64,000 nucleotides of DNA, taken from NCBI RefSeq assembly GCF_001295925.1, contig NZ_LJHQ01000037.1:124001-188000 (forward strand). The letters run 5' to 3'. Under the pieces are notes generated by a model. The model was given only the letters and a program-made list of their open reading frames with translations, ran no database searches and was not told the origin of the DNA. The DNA comes from Allobosea sp. AAP35. Lineage in GTDB: Bacteria > Pseudomonadota > Alphaproteobacteria > Rhizobiales > Beijerinckiaceae. Shown here piece by piece: positions 23,488 through 43,223 of this stretch; the first letter of the stretch is position 1; each line of letters opens with the position of its first letter. A program made the position numbers and the translations under genes.

Positions 23488-24993
23488 ATGAAACGCAGCG
23501 AAGAGGTTGAGGACAAGGCTGCCATCGGGGTTCCAGGCCTCGATGATGTCCTCGGAGGCGGATTGACGCGAGACCATGTCTTTCTGCTCGAAGGCAGTCC
23601 CGGCACCGGCAAGACCACGGTCGGCCTCAAATTTCTGCTTGCAGGCGCGGAGCGGGGCGAGCGGGGGCTCTACATCACATTATCGGAAACCCAACGCGAG
23701 CTTCGGACGGGCGCGCGTTCGCATGGCTGGGAGATCGGTGAGCATATCACGATCTTCGAGGTGGTGCCGCCCGAGAGCCTGCTCGATTCCGAGCAGCAGC
23801 AGACGCTGCTCTATTCGTCCGATCTCGAGCTCGGTGAGACGGTCGCCGCCATTATCGGGATTTTCGAGAAGGCCCGGCCGCAGCGCGTCGTGGTCGACAG
23901 CCTGTCTGAAATCCGGCTCCTGGCCCAGAGTTCGCTGCGCTATCGCCGCCAGATCCTGGCGTTGAAGCATTACTTCGCGCGCCACAGCGCCACCGTCCTG
24001 CTTCTCGACGACCTCACCACCGAAAGCCTCGACAAGACCGTGCACAGCGTCGTGCATGGGGTGATCCAGCTCGAACAGCTGGCGCCGGATTATGGCGCCG
24101 AGCGGCGGCGCCTGCGGGTGAGCAAATATCGCGGGCAGCGTTATCGTGGCGGCTATCACGACTTCACCATCACGACCGGCGGCGTCGTCGTCTTCCCGCG
24201 CCTCGTCTCGGGCGAGCATCGCATCCCGTTCGAACGGGTCCAGCAGACCAGCGACATCCCAGAGCTCGATGCCCTGCTCGGCGGCGGCGTCGCACAGGGC
24301 TCGAGCACATTGCTGATCGGGCCTGCCGGCACGGGCAAGAGCCTGATCGCACTGCAGTTCCTCGTGTCCGCCATGGCGCGCGGGGAGAAGGCAGCCTTCT
24401 TCGTGTTCGACGAGGAGCTGGGGCTCCTGTTCGACCGAATGAAAAAGATCGGCATCGACCTCCAGGCTTGGGACGATGCCGGGATGCTCGTCATCGAACA
24501 GGTCGATGCGGCCGAGTTGTCGCCCGGCGAGTTCGCCACCCGCGTCAAGGACATCGTCGAGCGCGACCAGGTCAAAGCCGTCGCGATCGACAGTCTGAAC
24601 GGTTACCAATCGTCGATGCCGCAGGAGACTTCGCTGATCCTGCATATTCACGAATTGCTGCAATATCTGAACCGGCAGGGGTGCAGCTCCTATCTGACGG
24701 TCGCTCAGCATGGGCTGGTCGGCGACATGAAGTCGCCGGTCGATGTCACCTATCTTGCCGACACGGTGATCCTGCTGCGCTATTTCGAGGCCGCAGGCAA
24801 AGTGCGGCGGGCCATTTCGGTGATCAAGAAGCGAACCGGCCGGCATGAGGAGACGATCCGCGAATTCACGATCGGACCGTCTGGACTGGCCATTGGCGAG
24901 CCGCTAACCGGGTTTCAGGGTGTTCTGAGGGGCGTTCCTACGCTTGTTGACGTCGAGCTGTCGGTCGCAGGTGCGAATGGCGGCCATTCCTGA
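23488..24993 (+). CDS. KaiC-like double-domain ATPase
   Basis: A 501-residue protein with two RecA/KaiC domains. Walker A motifs are GSPGTGKT (36-43) and GPAGTGKS (278-285). Where cyanobacterial KaiC has the phosphorylated S431/T432 before ITDTIILLQ, this protein has T421/Y422 before LADTVILLR. No kaiA or kaiB is in the window, so clock function is unlikely; KaiC-like proteins in non-phototrophs are linked to stress signalling. The C-terminal end overlaps the next gene (a hybrid kinase) by 17 bp, implying they act together. No EcfG-like promoter is seen. Confidence 0.88.
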   Translation: MKRSEEVEDKAAIGVPGLDDVLGGGLTRDHVFLLEGSPGTGKTTVGLKFLLAGAERGERGLYITLSETQRELRTGARSHGWEIGEHITIFEVVPPESLLDSEQQQTLLYSSDLELGETVAAIIGIFEKARPQRVVVDSLSEIRLLAQSSLRYRRQILALKHYFARHSATVLLLDDLTTESLDKTVHSVVHGVIQLEQLAPDYGAERRRLRVSKYRGQRYRGGYHDFTITTGGVVVFPRLVSGEHRIPFERVQQTSDIPELDALLGGGVAQGSSTLLIGPAGTGKSLIALQFLVSAMARGEKAAFFVFDEELGLLFDRMKKIGIDLQAWDDAGMLVIEQVDAAELSPGEFATRVKDIVERDQVKAVAIDSLNGYQSSMPQETSLILHIHELLQYLNRQGCSSYLTVAQHGLVGDMKSPVDVTYLADTVILLRYFEAAGKVRRAISVIKKRTGRHEETIREFTIGPSGLAIGEPLTGFQGVLRGVPTLVDVELSVAGANGGHS

Positions 24994-27932: not shown

Positions 27933-28051
27933 CGCGCCATCGTCGTCGACAAGGCGTCACAAACAGCATCATTTTGAAGGTCTTGACGCGAGCGGCCCGC
28001 GTGCGGATGGTCGGGGCGGGCAACCGGACCGCGCTGGCCTTGAGGAAGACC

Positions 28052-29515
28052 ATGCCATTCGCGCAATCGAGTGAAGACGTATCGGCTCAAGCCGGTGCCA
28101 TCGATCCGGAACAGAGCGCCATGCGCTCGCTCGCCTATCGCGCGCTGGTCGAGAGCGAGGCTTCCTACAAGGCGGCGCTTCAGGCCGGCAACATGGGCAG
28201 CTGGGAGACCGATCTTCGCCTGGGACACAGGATCTGGACCGATGAGGGCATGGCCCTGTTCGGCGTCGATCTTCCCGGAGGGCGCGGGCAGGTGGGCGGC
28301 CCCGACGACGAGTGGCTGGCGGCCGTCCACCCCGACGACCGCGATTTCGCCGTCGGGTTGAGGCAACACGCGTTCACGAGCGATTCCTTTCCAGCCGAAT
28401 ACAGGATCCTGCGGCCGTGCGGCCGTGTCGCCTGGCTGTCCGGGCGGGGACGCGTGCTGGAGCGGGACGCCGCCGGCCGGCCTGTCCGCCTGGTCAGCAT
28501 CATGGCCGATATCTCGGATCGCAAGGCGGCGGAACTGGCGTTGCGCCAGAGCGAAGCCCGATTTCGCAGCCTCTTCGAGAATATCGCTGTCGGCATGGCG
28601 TTCACCGATCTCGAAGGTGCCTGGCTGACCGTGAACCAGCGCCTTTGCGACTTGCTCCACGTCGCCGAGGCGGGTCTGATCGGCCGTCATGCCGAGGACT
28701 TTCTGGTACAGTCTGAACGGGGTCGCGAGCGCGAAGAGCTTGCGCGCCTTCTATCGGGCGAGGTTGCGCATGCCGCTTTTGAGATCCAGTTCCGGCGCGG
28801 CGATGGGTCTTCGGTCTGGATCGGCCGCACCGCCTCGCTGATCCTCGATGCAAAGGGTGTTCCCCAGCATGTCGTCTCCGTCTACCGTGACATCACCCAG
28901 CGCCGCCTGGCACAGGACCACCAGCGCTTCCTGCTGGCGGAACTGTCGCACCGGTCGAAGAACCTGCTGGCCGTGATCCAGGCGATCGCGGGTCAGACCA
29001 TCCGCTCGGTCGATACGCTCGACGAGTTCAAGGCCCGCTTCACGCAGCGGCTGCAGGGGATCGCGGCCACGCAGGATATCCTGGTGCGTCAGGACTGGGC
29101 GGGCGGCGACCTGCGCCAGCTGCTGTCGACACAGATCGAGATTTTCGACCTCGGCGCCGCGCGCATGAGCATGAGCGGGCCTGACGTCACCCTGTCGGCG
29201 GATGCCGTCCATGGCCTCGGGCTGGCTGTCCATGAACTTGCCACGAATGCTCTGAAATACGGCGCGCTATCGGTGCCTGCGGGCCTGGTCGTCGTGACCT
29301 GGGAGATCAGGGACGATGGCGCGCTGTCGATCTCCTGGGCTGAAGAGGGCGGCCCTCCCGTGGTGGCGCCGTCGCGGGCCGGTTTCGGCAGCACCGTGCT
29401 GGACAAGATGGCCGCCGCGAGCGTCGATGGCGTGGTCACGCTCGCCTATGCGCCGACCGGCGTGACCTGGACCTTGACCATGCCCGACAAGCATTTTGCC
29501 CTGCGCGAGGCATAG
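28052..29515 (+). CDS. Cytoplasmic PAS-PAS HWE-family histidine kinase
   Basis: A 487-residue kinase. Two PAS domains (~25-160, with VHPDDRDFAVGL, and ~160-285, with LFENIAVGMAFTDLEGAW) are followed by an HWE phosphotransfer domain: H300 in ELSHRSKNLLAVIQAIAGQT, N-box HELATNALKYGAL and the WAEEGGP block that names the family. No membrane segment. I chose the ATG at 28052 with GAGGAA five bases before it. HWE kinases commonly feed the PhyR/NepR/EcfG stress response in alphaproteobacteria, so this is a candidate upstream kinase, though phyR, nepR and ecfG are not in the window. Confidence 0.9.
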   Translation: MPFAQSSEDVSAQAGAIDPEQSAMRSLAYRALVESEASYKAALQAGNMGSWETDLRLGHRIWTDEGMALFGVDLPGGRGQVGGPDDEWLAAVHPDDRDFAVGLRQHAFTSDSFPAEYRILRPCGRVAWLSGRGRVLERDAAGRPVRLVSIMADISDRKAAELALRQSEARFRSLFENIAVGMAFTDLEGAWLTVNQRLCDLLHVAEAGLIGRHAEDFLVQSERGREREELARLLSGEVAHAAFEIQFRRGDGSSVWIGRTASLILDAKGVPQHVVSVYRDITQRRLAQDHQRFLLAELSHRSKNLLAVIQAIAGQTIRSVDTLDEFKARFTQRLQGIAATQDILVRQDWAGGDLRQLLSTQIEIFDLGAARMSMSGPDVTLSADAVHGLGLAVHELATNALKYGALSVPAGLVVVTWEIRDDGALSISWAEEGGPPVVAPSRAGFGSTVLDKMAAASVDGVVTLAYAPTGVTWTLTMPDKHFALREA

Positions 29516-36052: not shown

Positions 36053-36976
36053 TCAGCGGGACTTTTTGTAGAGTTTCTCGGCGATCTCGAACATTTCTTC
36101 CGGGGCGTAGTCGGGCGTGAAGGCCGACGGAACACCGGTGAGCTGATGGATCTTGCCGCCCTCGGGCATGCCGTCGACGACTTCGAGCTCACCCTGCGGA
36201 TCGCCCGGCAAAGCCATCTCGCCGCCGCCCCAGATCCCCGACATCGACTTGTAGTCATTGGGGCTGAAGGTATAGAGGCGACGATGCGAGCCCTCATCCA
36301 GATACTTCTGGCATTCCGGGATCTTGCTCAGATTGATGTTGGGCGTCGGCAGCATCTTCTCGATCTCGACGCCGGTGATCTGCTTTAGCGCCAGCGCATA
36401 GGCATGGGCGTGGACCGAGCCGCGCACCAGAAGATAGCCGCAGACCTCGCGGCCAGTCGGGTCGGTCAGCGTCTCGTAGACGCGCAGCTTGTGAAGACGC
36501 GCGCCGCATTCGAGATGGAAATTGTGCAGCAGGTCGGTGACGACATTGCCGGTCGTGGTGATGAAGTCATTGTTCCACGGCGCGCCATTGCTGTTGACGG
36601 GCGTCGAGCCGCCGCCATTCGAATAGAAGCTCGCGGCGAGCCGGATGTCCTTCATCAGCTCATGGGGCGCATCCGAGATGTCGCCGCCATCGGTCTCGTC
36701 ACCATCATTGTCGGGGCCGTTGTTGAGCATGGCGACGCCATTGCTGACGAGCTCGACATGGCCCAGCTCTTCGGCCGTGATGCTGGCCACCAGATGATAG
36801 AATGGCTTCAGCTTGTCCTTGCTGCGGAAGTTGAAGCTCTGGAACATGTAGTTGCCGAGCGTGGACATCTCGCCATACTTGCCGCCCAGAAGTTCCTGCA
36901 GGGCTGCGGCAGCGTTGGGGTCTTTCTTCTTCGGAGCGGGCAGTTCGGCCTGCAGTTTATCGACTCGCATGAACAT
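36053..36976 (-). CDS. Manganese catalase
   Basis: A 307-residue non-haem catalase that dismutates hydrogen peroxide. Metal-ligand regions are visible: YGEMSTLGNYM, ITAEELGHVELVS, HLECGARLHKLRVYE and VRGSVHAHAYAL, which hold the dimanganese Glu/His ligands in a ferritin-like bundle. No signal peptide, so cytosolic. The ATG at 36976 is preceded by GGAGAG. An EcfG-like promoter lies just upstream, so it is probably part of the general stress response. Confidence 0.95.
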   Translation of the reverse strand: MFMRVDKLQAELPAPKKKDPNAAAALQELLGGKYGEMSTLGNYMFQSFNFRSKDKLKPFYHLVASITAEELGHVELVSNGVAMLNNGPDNDGDETDGGDISDAPHELMKDIRLAASFYSNGGGSTPVNSNGAPWNNDFITTTGNVVTDLLHNFHLECGARLHKLRVYETLTDPTGREVCGYLLVRGSVHAHAYALALKQITGVEIEKMLPTPNINLSKIPECQKYLDEGSHRRLYTFSPNDYKSMSGIWGGGEMALPGDPQGELEVVDGMPEGGKIHQLTGVPSAFTPDYAPEEMFEIAEKLYKKSR

Positions 36977-37005: not shown

Positions 37006-37030
37006 AACGGGTCGGTTCGGGGAGCGTTCC
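37006..37030 (-). promoter_or_regulatory. EcfG-like promoter for the manganese catalase
   Basis: Minus-strand GGAAC (37030-37026), 16-bp spacer, CGTT (37009-37006), 29 bp before the start codon, leaving room for the GGAGAG ribosome site. Confidence 0.65.
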
Positions 37031-39428: not shown

Positions 39429-40472
39429 TCAGGCGAGCCGGTCGACGAGGTCCTGCTCGGCAAAGCGCAGCGTGAAGACCGTGCCTGTCCCGGCATCGGA
39501 GCGCCATTGCGTCTGCGCACCGAGCTGGATCGCCAATGTCCGGATCAGGGTGTCGCCGATGCCGCTGCGCCGATCGCTGGCGAAGCCTGTGCCGTTGTCG
39601 GACACGGTGATCGCCCGGTCGCCATCACTTGCATCCAGATGGATGGCGATCAGCCCGGGGCGGTCGTTGGGAAAGCCGTGGCGGAGGGCATTGGCCAGAA
39701 CCTCGTGGAGGATCAGGGCAAATGATGTGGCATGGTCCAGCGGAACGTCGAAATCGTCGCCTGTGACCTTCATCTCGATTCCGTCCCGGCCGAGCGAATG
39801 CGTCAGCGAGCGGATGAGCAGTTCGATGAACGGGCGGGCGCGCAAGGCCGAGGAGCCGACATCCTGCAGCTGCGCATGCACGGCCGCCATCGCCTCGACA
39901 CGATCCCGCAGCGACCGCAACTCCGCGACTGAACCGGGTGAGGCCCGGCGGATATGCAGGCTGACCAGACTGGCGGTCACCTGCAGGTTGTTCTTCACCC
40001 GGTGGTGGACCTCGCGCAGCAGGACGCGCTCATAGGACAACGCCCGCTGCAGATCCGCGGTCGCGGTTTCCACCGCCTCTTCGAGGCGCCGCTTGGTGTC
40101 GGCCGGCGAGGCGTGCTGCAGGATCCTGGGCAGGAGGAAGGTGAAGGCCGCGGCGGTGATCAGCGACACCACTGCCGTTCCCACCATGATCGAAAGCGCA
40201 AACCAGTTATGGGGCGACCTTGAGGTCACCGCATGCGCGGCATGAACGAGGTGGCTCAATCCGCAGGCGACGATGAACACGACGAAGCCGGCCCAGAGCC
40301 AGCGGAACGGCAGCTCGTTGCGCCAGCGAGCGAACACCACCGCCATGACGATGGGAATCCAGAAATAGGCGATCGCGACCCCGAGATTCGCAAGGATCGT
40401 GATCTCGCGCCAGTTGGCGGGAGCAGCATCGGACGTGCAGATCGCGTACAGGAACTGCAACCACTCGATCAT
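39429..40472 (-). CDS. Histidine kinase with an ethylene-receptor-like membrane domain
   Basis: A 347-residue kinase. Residues 20-120 hold three membrane helices that align with the Arabidopsis ETR1 ethylene-binding domain: AIAYFWIP, FRWLWAGFVVFIVACGLSH and GTAVVS. The copper ligands C65 and H69 correspond to C70 and H74, and Y32 and P36 to Y36 and P40, with one inserted residue between TM1 and TM2. D25 is N29 and K91 is M96. A linker leads to a HisKA_2 domain (phospho-His H157 in REVHHRVKNNLQV) and a HATPase_c domain (HEVLANALRHGF, DNGTGF). No receiver or partner regulator is adjacent. Binding of ethylene is inference. Confidence 0.85.
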   Translation of the reverse strand: MIEWLQFLYAICTSDAAPANWREITILANLGVAIAYFWIPIVMAVVFARWRNELPFRWLWAGFVVFIVACGLSHLVHAAHAVTSRSPHNWFALSIMVGTAVVSLITAAAFTFLLPRILQHASPADTKRRLEEAVETATADLQRALSYERVLLREVHHRVKNNLQVTASLVSLHIRRASPGSVAELRSLRDRVEAMAAVHAQLQDVGSSALRARPFIELLIRSLTHSLGRDGIEMKVTGDDFDVPLDHATSFALILHEVLANALRHGFPNDRPGLIAIHLDASDGDRAITVSDNGTGFASDRRSGIGDTLIRTLAIQLGAQTQWRSDAGTGTVFTLRFAEQDLVDRLA

Positions 40473-40842
40473 CTCGGGCTCCGCGGCCTTGACCGGCCCG
40501 CCATTGTGAATGTGAAGCTCGGGCGTCTCGTCGTCGCCATCTGCAAAAGTCGGCTCGCTTCAGTTTGGTTCCAGAAAGGAATGCGGCCAAAAGTCCGCCA
40601 GATCAAACGCATCCGCCAGGTTGGTCCTCCGGGAAGAGGGCCGACGGCGGCGCGCGGGTCGCCACACGCCTTGCCGCGCCTTCCTTCACGCGACCGCGGC
40701 GACAGGCTGCGGTCTGTGATGAACCATGTCGCAGCCGCTGCCAAGTCGGCACGTGCACCGCATGCGCGCCGAACCTTTTGCACCTCACCGGGTTTTTCCT
40801 TCCGGCCGTCTTTGGGCCAGGGAGACAAGGGAGACGCGCATC
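40473..40842. other. 370-bp divergent intergenic region
   Basis: This is the only gap over 300 bp. I see no convincing ORF; the open frames in it are extensions of antisense frames. It carries the upstream region of the ethylene-receptor-like kinase (minus) and, near its right end, a degenerate EcfG-like promoter for the SpoIIAA-like gene (plus). A GTTCC half-site at 40568-40572 lacks a matching -10. Confidence 0.6.
40770..40794 (+). promoter_or_regulatory. Weak EcfG-like promoter for the SpoIIAA-like gene
   Basis: CGAAC (40770-40774), 16-bp spacer, GGTT (40791-40794), 48 bp before the ATG. One mismatch in the -35. Confidence 0.35.
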
Positions 40843-41247
40843 ATGACGGATATCGCACCGAACCATTCGATCCAGCAGCAGCCTGGTGATCGGCCCGACC
40901 TGCTGATCTTCGAGATCGTCGCCAAGATCACGGAAGCCGACATCGAATGGATGGCCGCCCGGGTCCAGACCGCGTTCGATACGGTCGAGACGATCGATAT
41001 GCTGATCATCATGCGCCATTTCGAAGGGGCGGAGCTTGGCGCCATCTTCGACGCGGAGGCGATGAAGGCGCAGATGCGGTCGCTGCGCCATGTCCGCCGT
41101 TACGGCGTTGTGGGGGCGCCGTTCTGGGCGAAGGCGATGATCAATCTGTTCAGCCCGCTGACGCCGGTGGAGGAAAAGACCTTTTCGCTTGAGGAGGAGG
41201 CGCAGGCCCGCATCTGGATTTCGGCCCCTCACCCGGTGTCGCCGTAA
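40843..41247 (+). CDS. SpoIIAA-like (STAS/SEC14-type) protein
   Basis: A 134-residue protein: DLLIFEIVAKITEADIEWMAARVQTAFDTVETIDMLIIMRHFEGAELGAIF, then VGAPFWAKAMINLFSPL. This is the pattern of the SpoIIAA-like family (a STAS-like alpha/beta fold) widespread in proteobacteria, with no known ligand. I chose the ATG at 40843 preceded by GGAG; the frame from 40726 extends into an intergenic region. It lies 12 bp before the glycosylase gene, so the two may form an operon. Confidence 0.8.
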   Translation: MTDIAPNHSIQQQPGDRPDLLIFEIVAKITEADIEWMAARVQTAFDTVETIDMLIIMRHFEGAELGAIFDAEAMKAQMRSLRHVRRYGVVGAPFWAKAMINLFSPLTPVEEKTFSLEEEAQARIWISAPHPVSP

Positions 41248-41259
41248 TCGGGACAAGGC

Positions 41260-41922
41260 GTGCTCCTGATCGAGATGTCCGGTTCCAACGGTTTCACTTT
41301 GCCTGTCTTGACCGCTGCCGAGCCGGCGGACCGCCTGGACCGTCGCTTCTTCGCGCGGCCGGCCGATCTCGTCGCCCGCGAATTGATCGGATGCAGCCTG
41401 ATTTTCAAAGGTGTCGGCGGCGTCATCGTCGAAACCGAAGCTTATGACGACCAGGACCCGGCGTCCCACAGTGCCCGGGGGCCGACCGCGCGCAACCGCA
41501 GCATGTTCGGCCCGCCGGGCCATGCCTATCTCTACCGATCTTACGGGCTGCACTGGTGCTTCAACATCGTGTGCGGCGTCAGCCCAGGCGCTGGGGTTCT
41601 GGTACGCGCGCTGCATCCGGTCACCGGGATTATCGCGATGCGGCAGCGACGCGGCGACGGCCCCGACACGAAGCTCTGCGCGGGGCCGGGGCGGCTGTGC
41701 GCCGCGCTCGGCCTCGACGGTGCCTGGGACGGCCATGATTTGAGCCAGCCACCTTTCGCATTGCTGGCCGCCACCGAGAGACAGGATGTGCTGGCCGGCC
41801 CCCGTATCGGCATCTCGCGCGCGGTCGATGTGCCATGGCGCTTCGGGCTCGCCGGCTCGCCCTGTCTGAGCCGGCCGTTCGGCCGCTTCGTGAAACTGCC
41901 ACCGGGTGATCTTGCTCCCTGA
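41260..41922 (+). CDS. Alkyladenine (3-methyladenine) DNA glycosylase
   Basis: A 220-residue AAG/MPG-type glycosylase for excision of alkylated and deaminated purines. Marks: RRFFARPADLVARELIGCSL, the active-site Glu in VGGVIVETEAYDD, the intercalating Tyr region HAYLYRSYGLHWCFN and KLCAGPGRLCAALGL. The start could be GTG at 41260 (AAGG just before) or ATG at 41275; I give the longer. It is the second base excision repair enzyme in the window, besides exonuclease III. Confidence 0.93.
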   Translation: MLLIEMSGSNGFTLPVLTAAEPADRLDRRFFARPADLVARELIGCSLIFKGVGGVIVETEAYDDQDPASHSARGPTARNRSMFGPPGHAYLYRSYGLHWCFNIVCGVSPGAGVLVRALHPVTGIIAMRQRRGDGPDTKLCAGPGRLCAALGLDGAWDGHDLSQPPFALLAATERQDVLAGPRIGISRAVDVPWRFGLAGSPCLSRPFGRFVKLPPGDLAP

Positions 41923-41991: not shown

Positions 41992-43164
41992 TTACGGGGT
42001 CATCACAACCTTGATGCAGCCATCGGTCTTGTCGCGGAACTTCTCGTAGAGCCCCGGCCCCTCTTCGAGCGTCGCGCGATGCGTGATGACGAAGGTCGGA
42101 TCGATCTCGCCATCAAGGATCTTCTCGAGCAGCGGGGCGAGATAGCGGTGGGTGTGTGTCTGCCCGGTGCGGATGGTGATGCCCTTGTTCATCAGCGCGC
42201 CGAAGGGCAGCTTGTCGAGAAAGCCGACATAGACGCCCGGCACCGAAAGGGTGCCGCCCTTGCGGCAGGACATGATCGCCTCACGCAGGACATGGGGCCT
42301 GTCGGTGCCGAGGAACATCGCCGCCTTGACCTTGTCGACCACGGCATCGACCGACCCACCCGCATGGGCTTCGGCGCCGACCGCGTCGATGCAGCGATCG
42401 GGACCGCGGCCCTTGGTCATCTCCATCAACCGGTCATAGACATCGACCTCGTCGAAGTTGATGAGTTCGGCCTTGCCATAGGTCGCCGCCATCTGCAGCC
42501 GCTCGGGAACATTGTCGATCGCAATGACGCGGCCGGCCCCGAGCATCCAGGCGGATTGCATCGCGAACTGGCCGACCGGGCCGCAGCCCCAGACAGCGAC
42601 GGTGTCGCCAGGCTCGATCTCGGCGTTCTCGGCTGCCATGTAGCCGGTTGGGAAGATGTCCGACAGAAACAGGACCTGCTCGTCGGGAATGCCGTCGGGG
42701 ATCTTGATCGGTCCGACATCGGCGAAAGGCACGCGCAAAAACTCGGCCTGGCCGCCGGCATAGCCACCCAGCATATGGGAATAGCCGAACAGCCCGGATG
42801 GCGAATGGCCCATGGCCTTGCGGGCCATTTCGGCATTGGGGTTGGAGCGGTCGCAAAGCGAGAACATCGACTTCTTGCAGAAGAAGCATTCGCCGCAGGC
42901 AATGTTGAACGGCACCACAACGCGATCGCCGACCTTCAGCTTGGTGACGCCGGAGCCGACCTCGACGACTTCGCCCATGGTCTCGTGGCCAAGGATATCG
43001 CCGCTTTCCATGGTCGGCATGTAGCCGTCAAAGAGATGCAGGTCCGAACCGCAGATCGCGCAGGAGGTCACCTTGATGACGACGTCGCCCGCGTCCTGGA
43101 TGGTCGGATCGGGGACGGTGTCGCAGCGGATATCGCCTTTGCCGTGCCAGCAGAGAGCTTTCAT
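41992..43164 (-). CDS. Zinc-dependent alcohol dehydrogenase (formaldehyde-dehydrogenase-like)
   Basis: A 390-residue medium-chain dehydrogenase: catalytic zinc Cys in [26 protein letters not shown], the structural zinc four-Cys loop ([20 protein letters not shown]) and the NAD motif [13 protein letters not shown]. It resembles glutathione-independent formaldehyde dehydrogenases, with their long insertion near residue 110-140 and 260-300. The substrate is probably an aldehyde or alcohol. The ATG at 43164 has a Shine-Dalgarno-like GAAGGA upstream. An EcfG-like promoter is 35 bp upstream, so it is stress-linked. Confidence 0.92.
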
Positions 43165-43198: not shown

Positions 43199-43223
43199 AA
43201 CGTGGCCGGCTTGCAGACGTTCC
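43199..43223 (-). promoter_or_regulatory. EcfG-like promoter for the zinc alcohol dehydrogenase
   Basis: Minus-strand GGAAC (43223-43219), 16-bp spacer, CGTT (43202-43199), 34 bp before the start codon. Confidence 0.6.

Follow-up and report, generated by a model that had tools for sequence, protein, structure and literature searches.

How might an ethylene-receptor-like domain work when it has kept its copper ligands and lost both the acidic and the basic residue of its binding pocket? The question is raised by a sensor histidine kinase of 347 residues, encoded on the minus strand at positions 39429-40472 of the window, by which we mean the whole 64,000-nucleotide stretch of DNA that was analysed. 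A profile search assigns residues 24-119 (40116-40403) to the Pfam family ETR1_N (68.5 bits against a curated cut-off of 27, E 6e-19), residues 154-226 (39795-40013) to the dimerisation and phospho-acceptor domain HisKA_2 (E 4e-16), and residues 250-338 (39459-39725) to the catalytic domain HATPase_c (E 2e-8). The ETR1_N match is not a chance one, because its score is 2.5 times the cut-off and the same search returned zero matches in 14 control genomes; within the source genome it is the sole domain of its kind. The phospho-acceptor H157 lies inside the stretch H157-R-V-K-N, and the protein thus combines the HisKA_2 profile, the HRxxN motif and the ATPase domain of an HWE/HisKA_2 kinase. Helix 3 of the ethylene-binding domain (EBD) runs directly into HisKA_2, with no PAS or GAF domain between them. 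The first, sequence-only reading of this locus had proposed both the homology to ethylene receptors and a HisKA_2 output through H157, and the profile search bears it out on both counts.

Along with a profile score above the cut-off, the domain has the three transmembrane helices of an ETR1-type EBD. An AlphaFold2 model of residues 1-135, computed from a 66-row alignment (mean pLDDT 91.4, pTM 0.78), places these helices at residues 21-49, 57-83 and 90-119 (block pLDDT 87-98), and hydropathy agrees. Projected on helical wheels, N29, A33, Y36 and P40 share one face of the first helix, F63, I67, C70, H74 and H77 one face of the second, and M96, A100 and S103 one face of the third, a pattern that would fit a shared pocket and falls short of proof. 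The three helices over which the sequence-only reading had aligned the domain with ETR1 are present in the model, and it is the helix boundaries and the helical wheels that support a shared face of the pocket residues. Comparison with solved structures gave no Foldseek match at E 0.001, and the best VIA-align hits (Z up to 8.2) were to unrelated helical chains. We regard the fold of the EBD and the assignment of the kinase as all but certain.

Which parts of the ethylene-binding pocket have been kept? Aligned with Arabidopsis ETR1, the kinase places N29 (40386-40388) at D25, Y36 at Y32, P40 at P36, C70 (40263-40265) at C65, H74 (40251-40253) at H69 and M96 (40185-40187) at K91, and the two proteins share an identical TAVVS stretch; N29, Y36, I39, P40, I67, C70, H74, M96 and H157 were each confirmed in the kinase. 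The numbering of the ETR1 sequence used here (D25/C65/H69 and I35/P36/I62) matches published work (PMC12643061, PMC6586836). Both Cu(I) ligands of a functional receptor, Cys65 and His69, are present as C70 and H74 and are invariant across the clade described below. The full set of seven residues that ETR1 requires for ethylene binding (D25, Y32, I35, P36, I62, C65, H69) is incomplete, six of the seven being kept and D25 being replaced by N29, and the Lys91 partner of Asp25 is missing as well, with Met at this position here and Leu in Mesorhizobium. Two signatures of canonical EBDs, PHGxC and W-P-Y, have altered positions too. The retained tyrosine, proline, TAVVS stretch and copper ligands, and the absent Asp and Lys, are all as first read from the sequence. 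The EBD is likely, by analogy with its family, to bind Cu(I). We also considered a methionine at position 96 as a conserved copper ligand and rejected it: the position is not conserved in the clade (Met, Met and Leu, the last in the Mesorhizobium orthologue), which makes such a role unlikely.

The exchange of Asp for Asn has a precedent. ETR1 D25N is a functional receptor with an approximately 100-fold lower affinity, natural substitutions of the Asp25 position have already been reported, and a salt bridge between Asp25 and a conserved Lys has been modelled and proposed (reviewed in PMC13012798). The pocket change is thus one of known likely effect, rather than a new discovery. The sequence-only reading had put forward an altered ethylene binding; the idea itself is supported, and in view of the D25N phenotype it is the expected outcome.

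Might the domain have stopped sensing altogether and persist as a membrane anchor or a dimerisation module for the kinase? Such a role would be compatible with the loss of both the canonical pocket Asp and Lys, and there are sampled EBDs that have lost the copper ligands outright (L062/L063, L153, L157). The selection data argue otherwise. Between the Bosea orthologues (dS approximately 1.0), dN/dS comes to 0.083 for the EBD and to 0.141 for the kinase, which shows that the gene is real and maintained and that purifying selection on the EBD is strong; a constraint that is stronger on the sensor than on the kinase part argues against a decayed anchor, and we likewise consider a degenerate domain unlikely from the EBD value. 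Moreover, Y36, I39, P40, I67, C70 and H74 are invariant in all three clade members. We hold a non-sensing EBD to be quite improbable.

If the domain senses, the state of its Asp and Lys positions becomes the central issue. We compared EBDs from alphaproteobacteria, other Pseudomonadota, cyanobacteria, Melainabacteria, Acidobacteriota and a few plasmids. Asp25 is found in 118 of the 136 EBDs with intact Cys and His, and 116 of these 118 carry Lys or Arg at position 91. The remaining 18 have Asn (15), His (2) or Glu (1) in place of Asp, and 14 of them lack a basic residue at 91, against 2 of the 118 with Asp (Fisher p 8e-14, a value that ignores kinship). The best tree has nine changes of Asp25, four being the minimum on supported branches; a kin-corrected sign test of the association, underpowered with four independent pairs on supported branches, gives a median p of 0.5. 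An absolute link between the two positions, in which no Asp is lost without the Lys, held on 82 sequences and broke on 158, where four members of the cyanobacterial sample combine Asn25 with Lys91 (L132, L145) or with Arg91 (L167, L192). Judged from these sequences, loss of the pair is recurrent, though Asn with a retained Lys also exists, and the association speaks for the proposed bridge between Asp and Lys, as a tendency that is not absolute.

The same comparison yielded several observations in their own right. The four cyanobacterial-sample proteins with Asn25 and Lys/Arg91 (L132, L145, L167, L192) are natural counterparts of ETR1 D25N. Two others from that sample (L162, L163) have His for Asp25 and Ile/Leu at 91 with both copper ligands present, and share with the window protein a one-residue insertion in helix 1. 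Seven EBD paralogues lack one or both copper ligands (L062, L063, L153, L157, L158, L169, L170); the losses (H69R, C65G, C65W/H69K) possibly mark copper-independent domains. L035 (1366-1809) and L079 encode stand-alone EBDs of about 147 residues with Asn/Tyr at the Asp/Lys positions; in L035 a separate membrane histidine kinase, apparently of the CHASE3 type, follows shortly downstream. Two Melainabacteria EBD kinases (L073, L074) have Asn25 with Asp91 and are directly followed by a response-regulator gene, and a Novosphingobium conjugative plasmid (L195) carries an EBD kinase and a response regulator adjoining a type II Cas9 gene.

The kinase at our locus has few close relatives. Scanning one genome for each of 84,980 species with two short peptide patterns, which may miss others, we found two: a Bosea metagenome-assembled genome (84% identity over the EBD; its locus includes L013 of genome G027) and Mesorhizobium loti CJ3sym (59%). 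G027 belongs to the same genus as the source genome, which places the window in Bosea. Among 37 genomes of the genus that were searched, the domain occurs in two, the source genome and G027; the other genomes sampled in the order gave no close match, and plasmids gave no close EBD relative, their best matches reaching 32-40% identity. The kinase and its two relatives group in a single clade, which has full support and is reached by a long branch. All three members have an extension of helix 2, H77-A-A-H80 in the window protein (40233-40244), in which both histidines are conserved in the two Bosea species and in Mesorhizobium; it is absent from all 72 canonical rows of the alignment. These histidines had escaped the sequence-only reading.

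Do the two histidines point to a different ligand? The copper site may have been kept for CO, for another alkene or alkyne, or for copper itself, and not for ethylene. Such a change would accord with the alteration of both pocket residues, the clade-specific extension with its two conserved histidines, the altered PHGxC and W-P-Y positions and the long branch to the clade. ETR1 D25N nonetheless still binds ethylene and works (PMC13012798), every reported required residue except D25 is unchanged, and His77 and His80 are known from just three sequences. Weak sensing of ethylene or an olefin is the most parsimonious interpretation, and a changed ligand is a fair rival to it, albeit on the whole a rather unlikely one; for ethylene or an olefin as the ligand we see about an even chance. 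A bolder form of the rival, whereby the Bosea/Mesorhizobium clade would have rebuilt the pocket by losing the Asp-Lys pair and placing His77 and His80 near the Cys-His pair, so that Cu(I) would sense a non-ethylene ligand or copper and report straight to the general stress response, seems to us clearly unlikely.

Where, then, might the signal go? The surroundings of the gene suggest an answer which the sequence-only reading overlooked, namely the general stress response; its further suggestion of a plant association finds nothing in the sequence to indicate it. The EcfG-type promoter motif GGAAC-N16/17-CGTT occurs eight times in the window, where 0.72 occurrences would be expected. Genome-wide it is about as frequent as its reversed-pattern control (81 versus 76), and it is therefore informative only where it is clustered. 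Such a cluster is found here, where the window contains all eight motifs of the 203-kb contig C31 (Poisson p 3e-5 per 64-kb tile); seven further motifs lie within 9 kb around nepR. Two of the motifs, both on the minus strand, belong to genes that flank the kinase gene: one with an N16 spacer (37006-37030) stands 29 bp ahead of the start codon in an Mn-catalase gene (36053-36976), and one (43199-43223) 34 bp ahead of that in a Zn-alcohol dehydrogenase gene (41992-43164). The second Bosea species has retained the dehydrogenase site, though its spacer has diverged. Other sites precede an amylase-family gene and Ku. The island as a whole (3146-49772, eight motifs in 46.6 kb) includes amylase-family, GlgB, GlgE, LigD, Ku and Mn-catalase genes, and also holds a PAS-HWE kinase (27974-29515) and a KaiC-like ATPase (23488-24993).

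Next to the kinase gene, on the plus strand, lie a divergent gene for a SpoIIAA-like protein (40840-41247) and a gene for a methylpurine-DNA glycosylase (41260-41922). In the second Bosea species, too, the kinase gene has a reading frame homologous to the SpoIIAA-like one at its side, and the glycosylase gene adjoins the kinase in both species. In M. loti, the genes that go with a looser form of the motif, at a distance of 1-4 kb from the kinase gene, are a BrkB gene, a holin-family gene and small genes of unknown function. Whereas flanking genes in the window have a strict EcfG motif, none was found upstream of the kinase gene itself; a promoter of this type is a supportive, not strictly defining, feature of general-stress-response kinases, and given its absence the kinase may be a constitutive input to the response and not a member of the regulon.

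The genome does encode the pathway: PhyR, NepR and EcfG are found together with a HisKA_2 kinase on contig C15. Kinases of the general stress response are HRxxN proteins of the HWE/HisKA_2 type and often dispersed in the genome (PMC5898713, PMC8103513), and the best NCBIfam match to a region of our kinase is PhyK. From the HRxxN motif, the promoter island, the pathway in the genome and our finding no response regulator beside the gene, we infer that the kinase probably signals to PhyR. Coupling of an EBD to an HRxxN kinase is not particular to the variant pocket, since Asp/Lys-intact EBDs also occur on such kinases. Alternatively, the sensor may operate as proposed and address a dedicated response regulator encoded elsewhere in the genome. 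None of the neighbouring genes scanned around this orphan kinase encodes a receiver, HRxxN kinases need not all act on PhyR, and the kinase gene itself is without an EcfG motif, all of which would suit a dedicated partner; against this stand the surrounding EcfG-type island, the closeness to PhyK and the intact PhyR-NepR-EcfG system, and we consider such a partner decidedly unlikely.

How might an output to PhyR be coupled to a weak ethylene sensor? We envision a scenario whereby the three N-terminal helices, by analogy with the family, coordinate Cu(I) by means of C70 and H74, and whereby the metal binds a small ligand when this is present at high concentration, ethylene or an olefin like it being the most likely candidate. 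N29 and M96 would take the place of the Asp25-Lys91 pair, which in ETR1 is linked to high affinity and to the coupling of binding to output, and a low affinity as in ETR1 D25N would be expected; the conserved H77 and H80, where helix 2 ends, may alter the copper site or the coupling. Ligand binding would then shift helix 3 and change the phosphorylation of H157, and the kinase would most likely feed PhyR and thereby switch the NepR-EcfG general stress response. Taken as a whole, this Cu(I)-dependent, low-affinity sensor of ethylene (or olefins) feeding the general stress response is a tentative proposal, to which we give slightly less than an even chance.

For the question of how the Asp-Lys pair of plant ethylene receptors contributes to affinity and to signal transmission, natural test cases are offered by bacterial homologues which retain the copper residues and have lost Asp25, mostly together with Lys91; they would show whether the pair governs affinity, coupling or the choice of ligand. 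If the link to the general stress response is true, the pathway would receive a gas-type input in Bosea. Our literature search found no paper reporting an EBD on a general-stress-response kinase. We would describe the protein as an instructive variant within an established type of receptor, with a putative ligand and a putative output.

How does this variant compare with the systems already described? AzoEtr1 of Azospirillum brasilense and SynEtr1 of Synechocystis have, like our kinase, a three-helix N-terminal EBD with the Tyr, Ile, Pro, Ile, Cys and His residues, and AzoEtr1 is likewise alphaproteobacterial and likewise ends in a histidine kinase. None of the seven required residues is missing from AzoEtr1, which also has a PAS domain and a response-regulator gene next to its own (PMC11819568), whereas the kinase described here has Asn for Asp, no Lys91, no PAS domain, a HisKA_2 output and no adjacent regulator that we could find. 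ETR1 D25N belongs to the same domain family and its change is reproduced by N29; unlike that mutant, our kinase has also replaced Lys91 and extended helix 2 by His77 and His80, and it differs from ETR1 in the N-terminal segment with the cysteines of the interchain disulphide, where it has one Cys, C12. There are also alphaproteobacterial kinases of similar length (for example L022, L028, L031) in which an EBD closely precedes an HRVKN kinase and which, unlike ours, keep Asp25 and Lys91. The PhyK/Pak-type kinases of the general stress response, finally, share its HisKA_2 domain with the HRxxN motif and differ from it in the sensor part.
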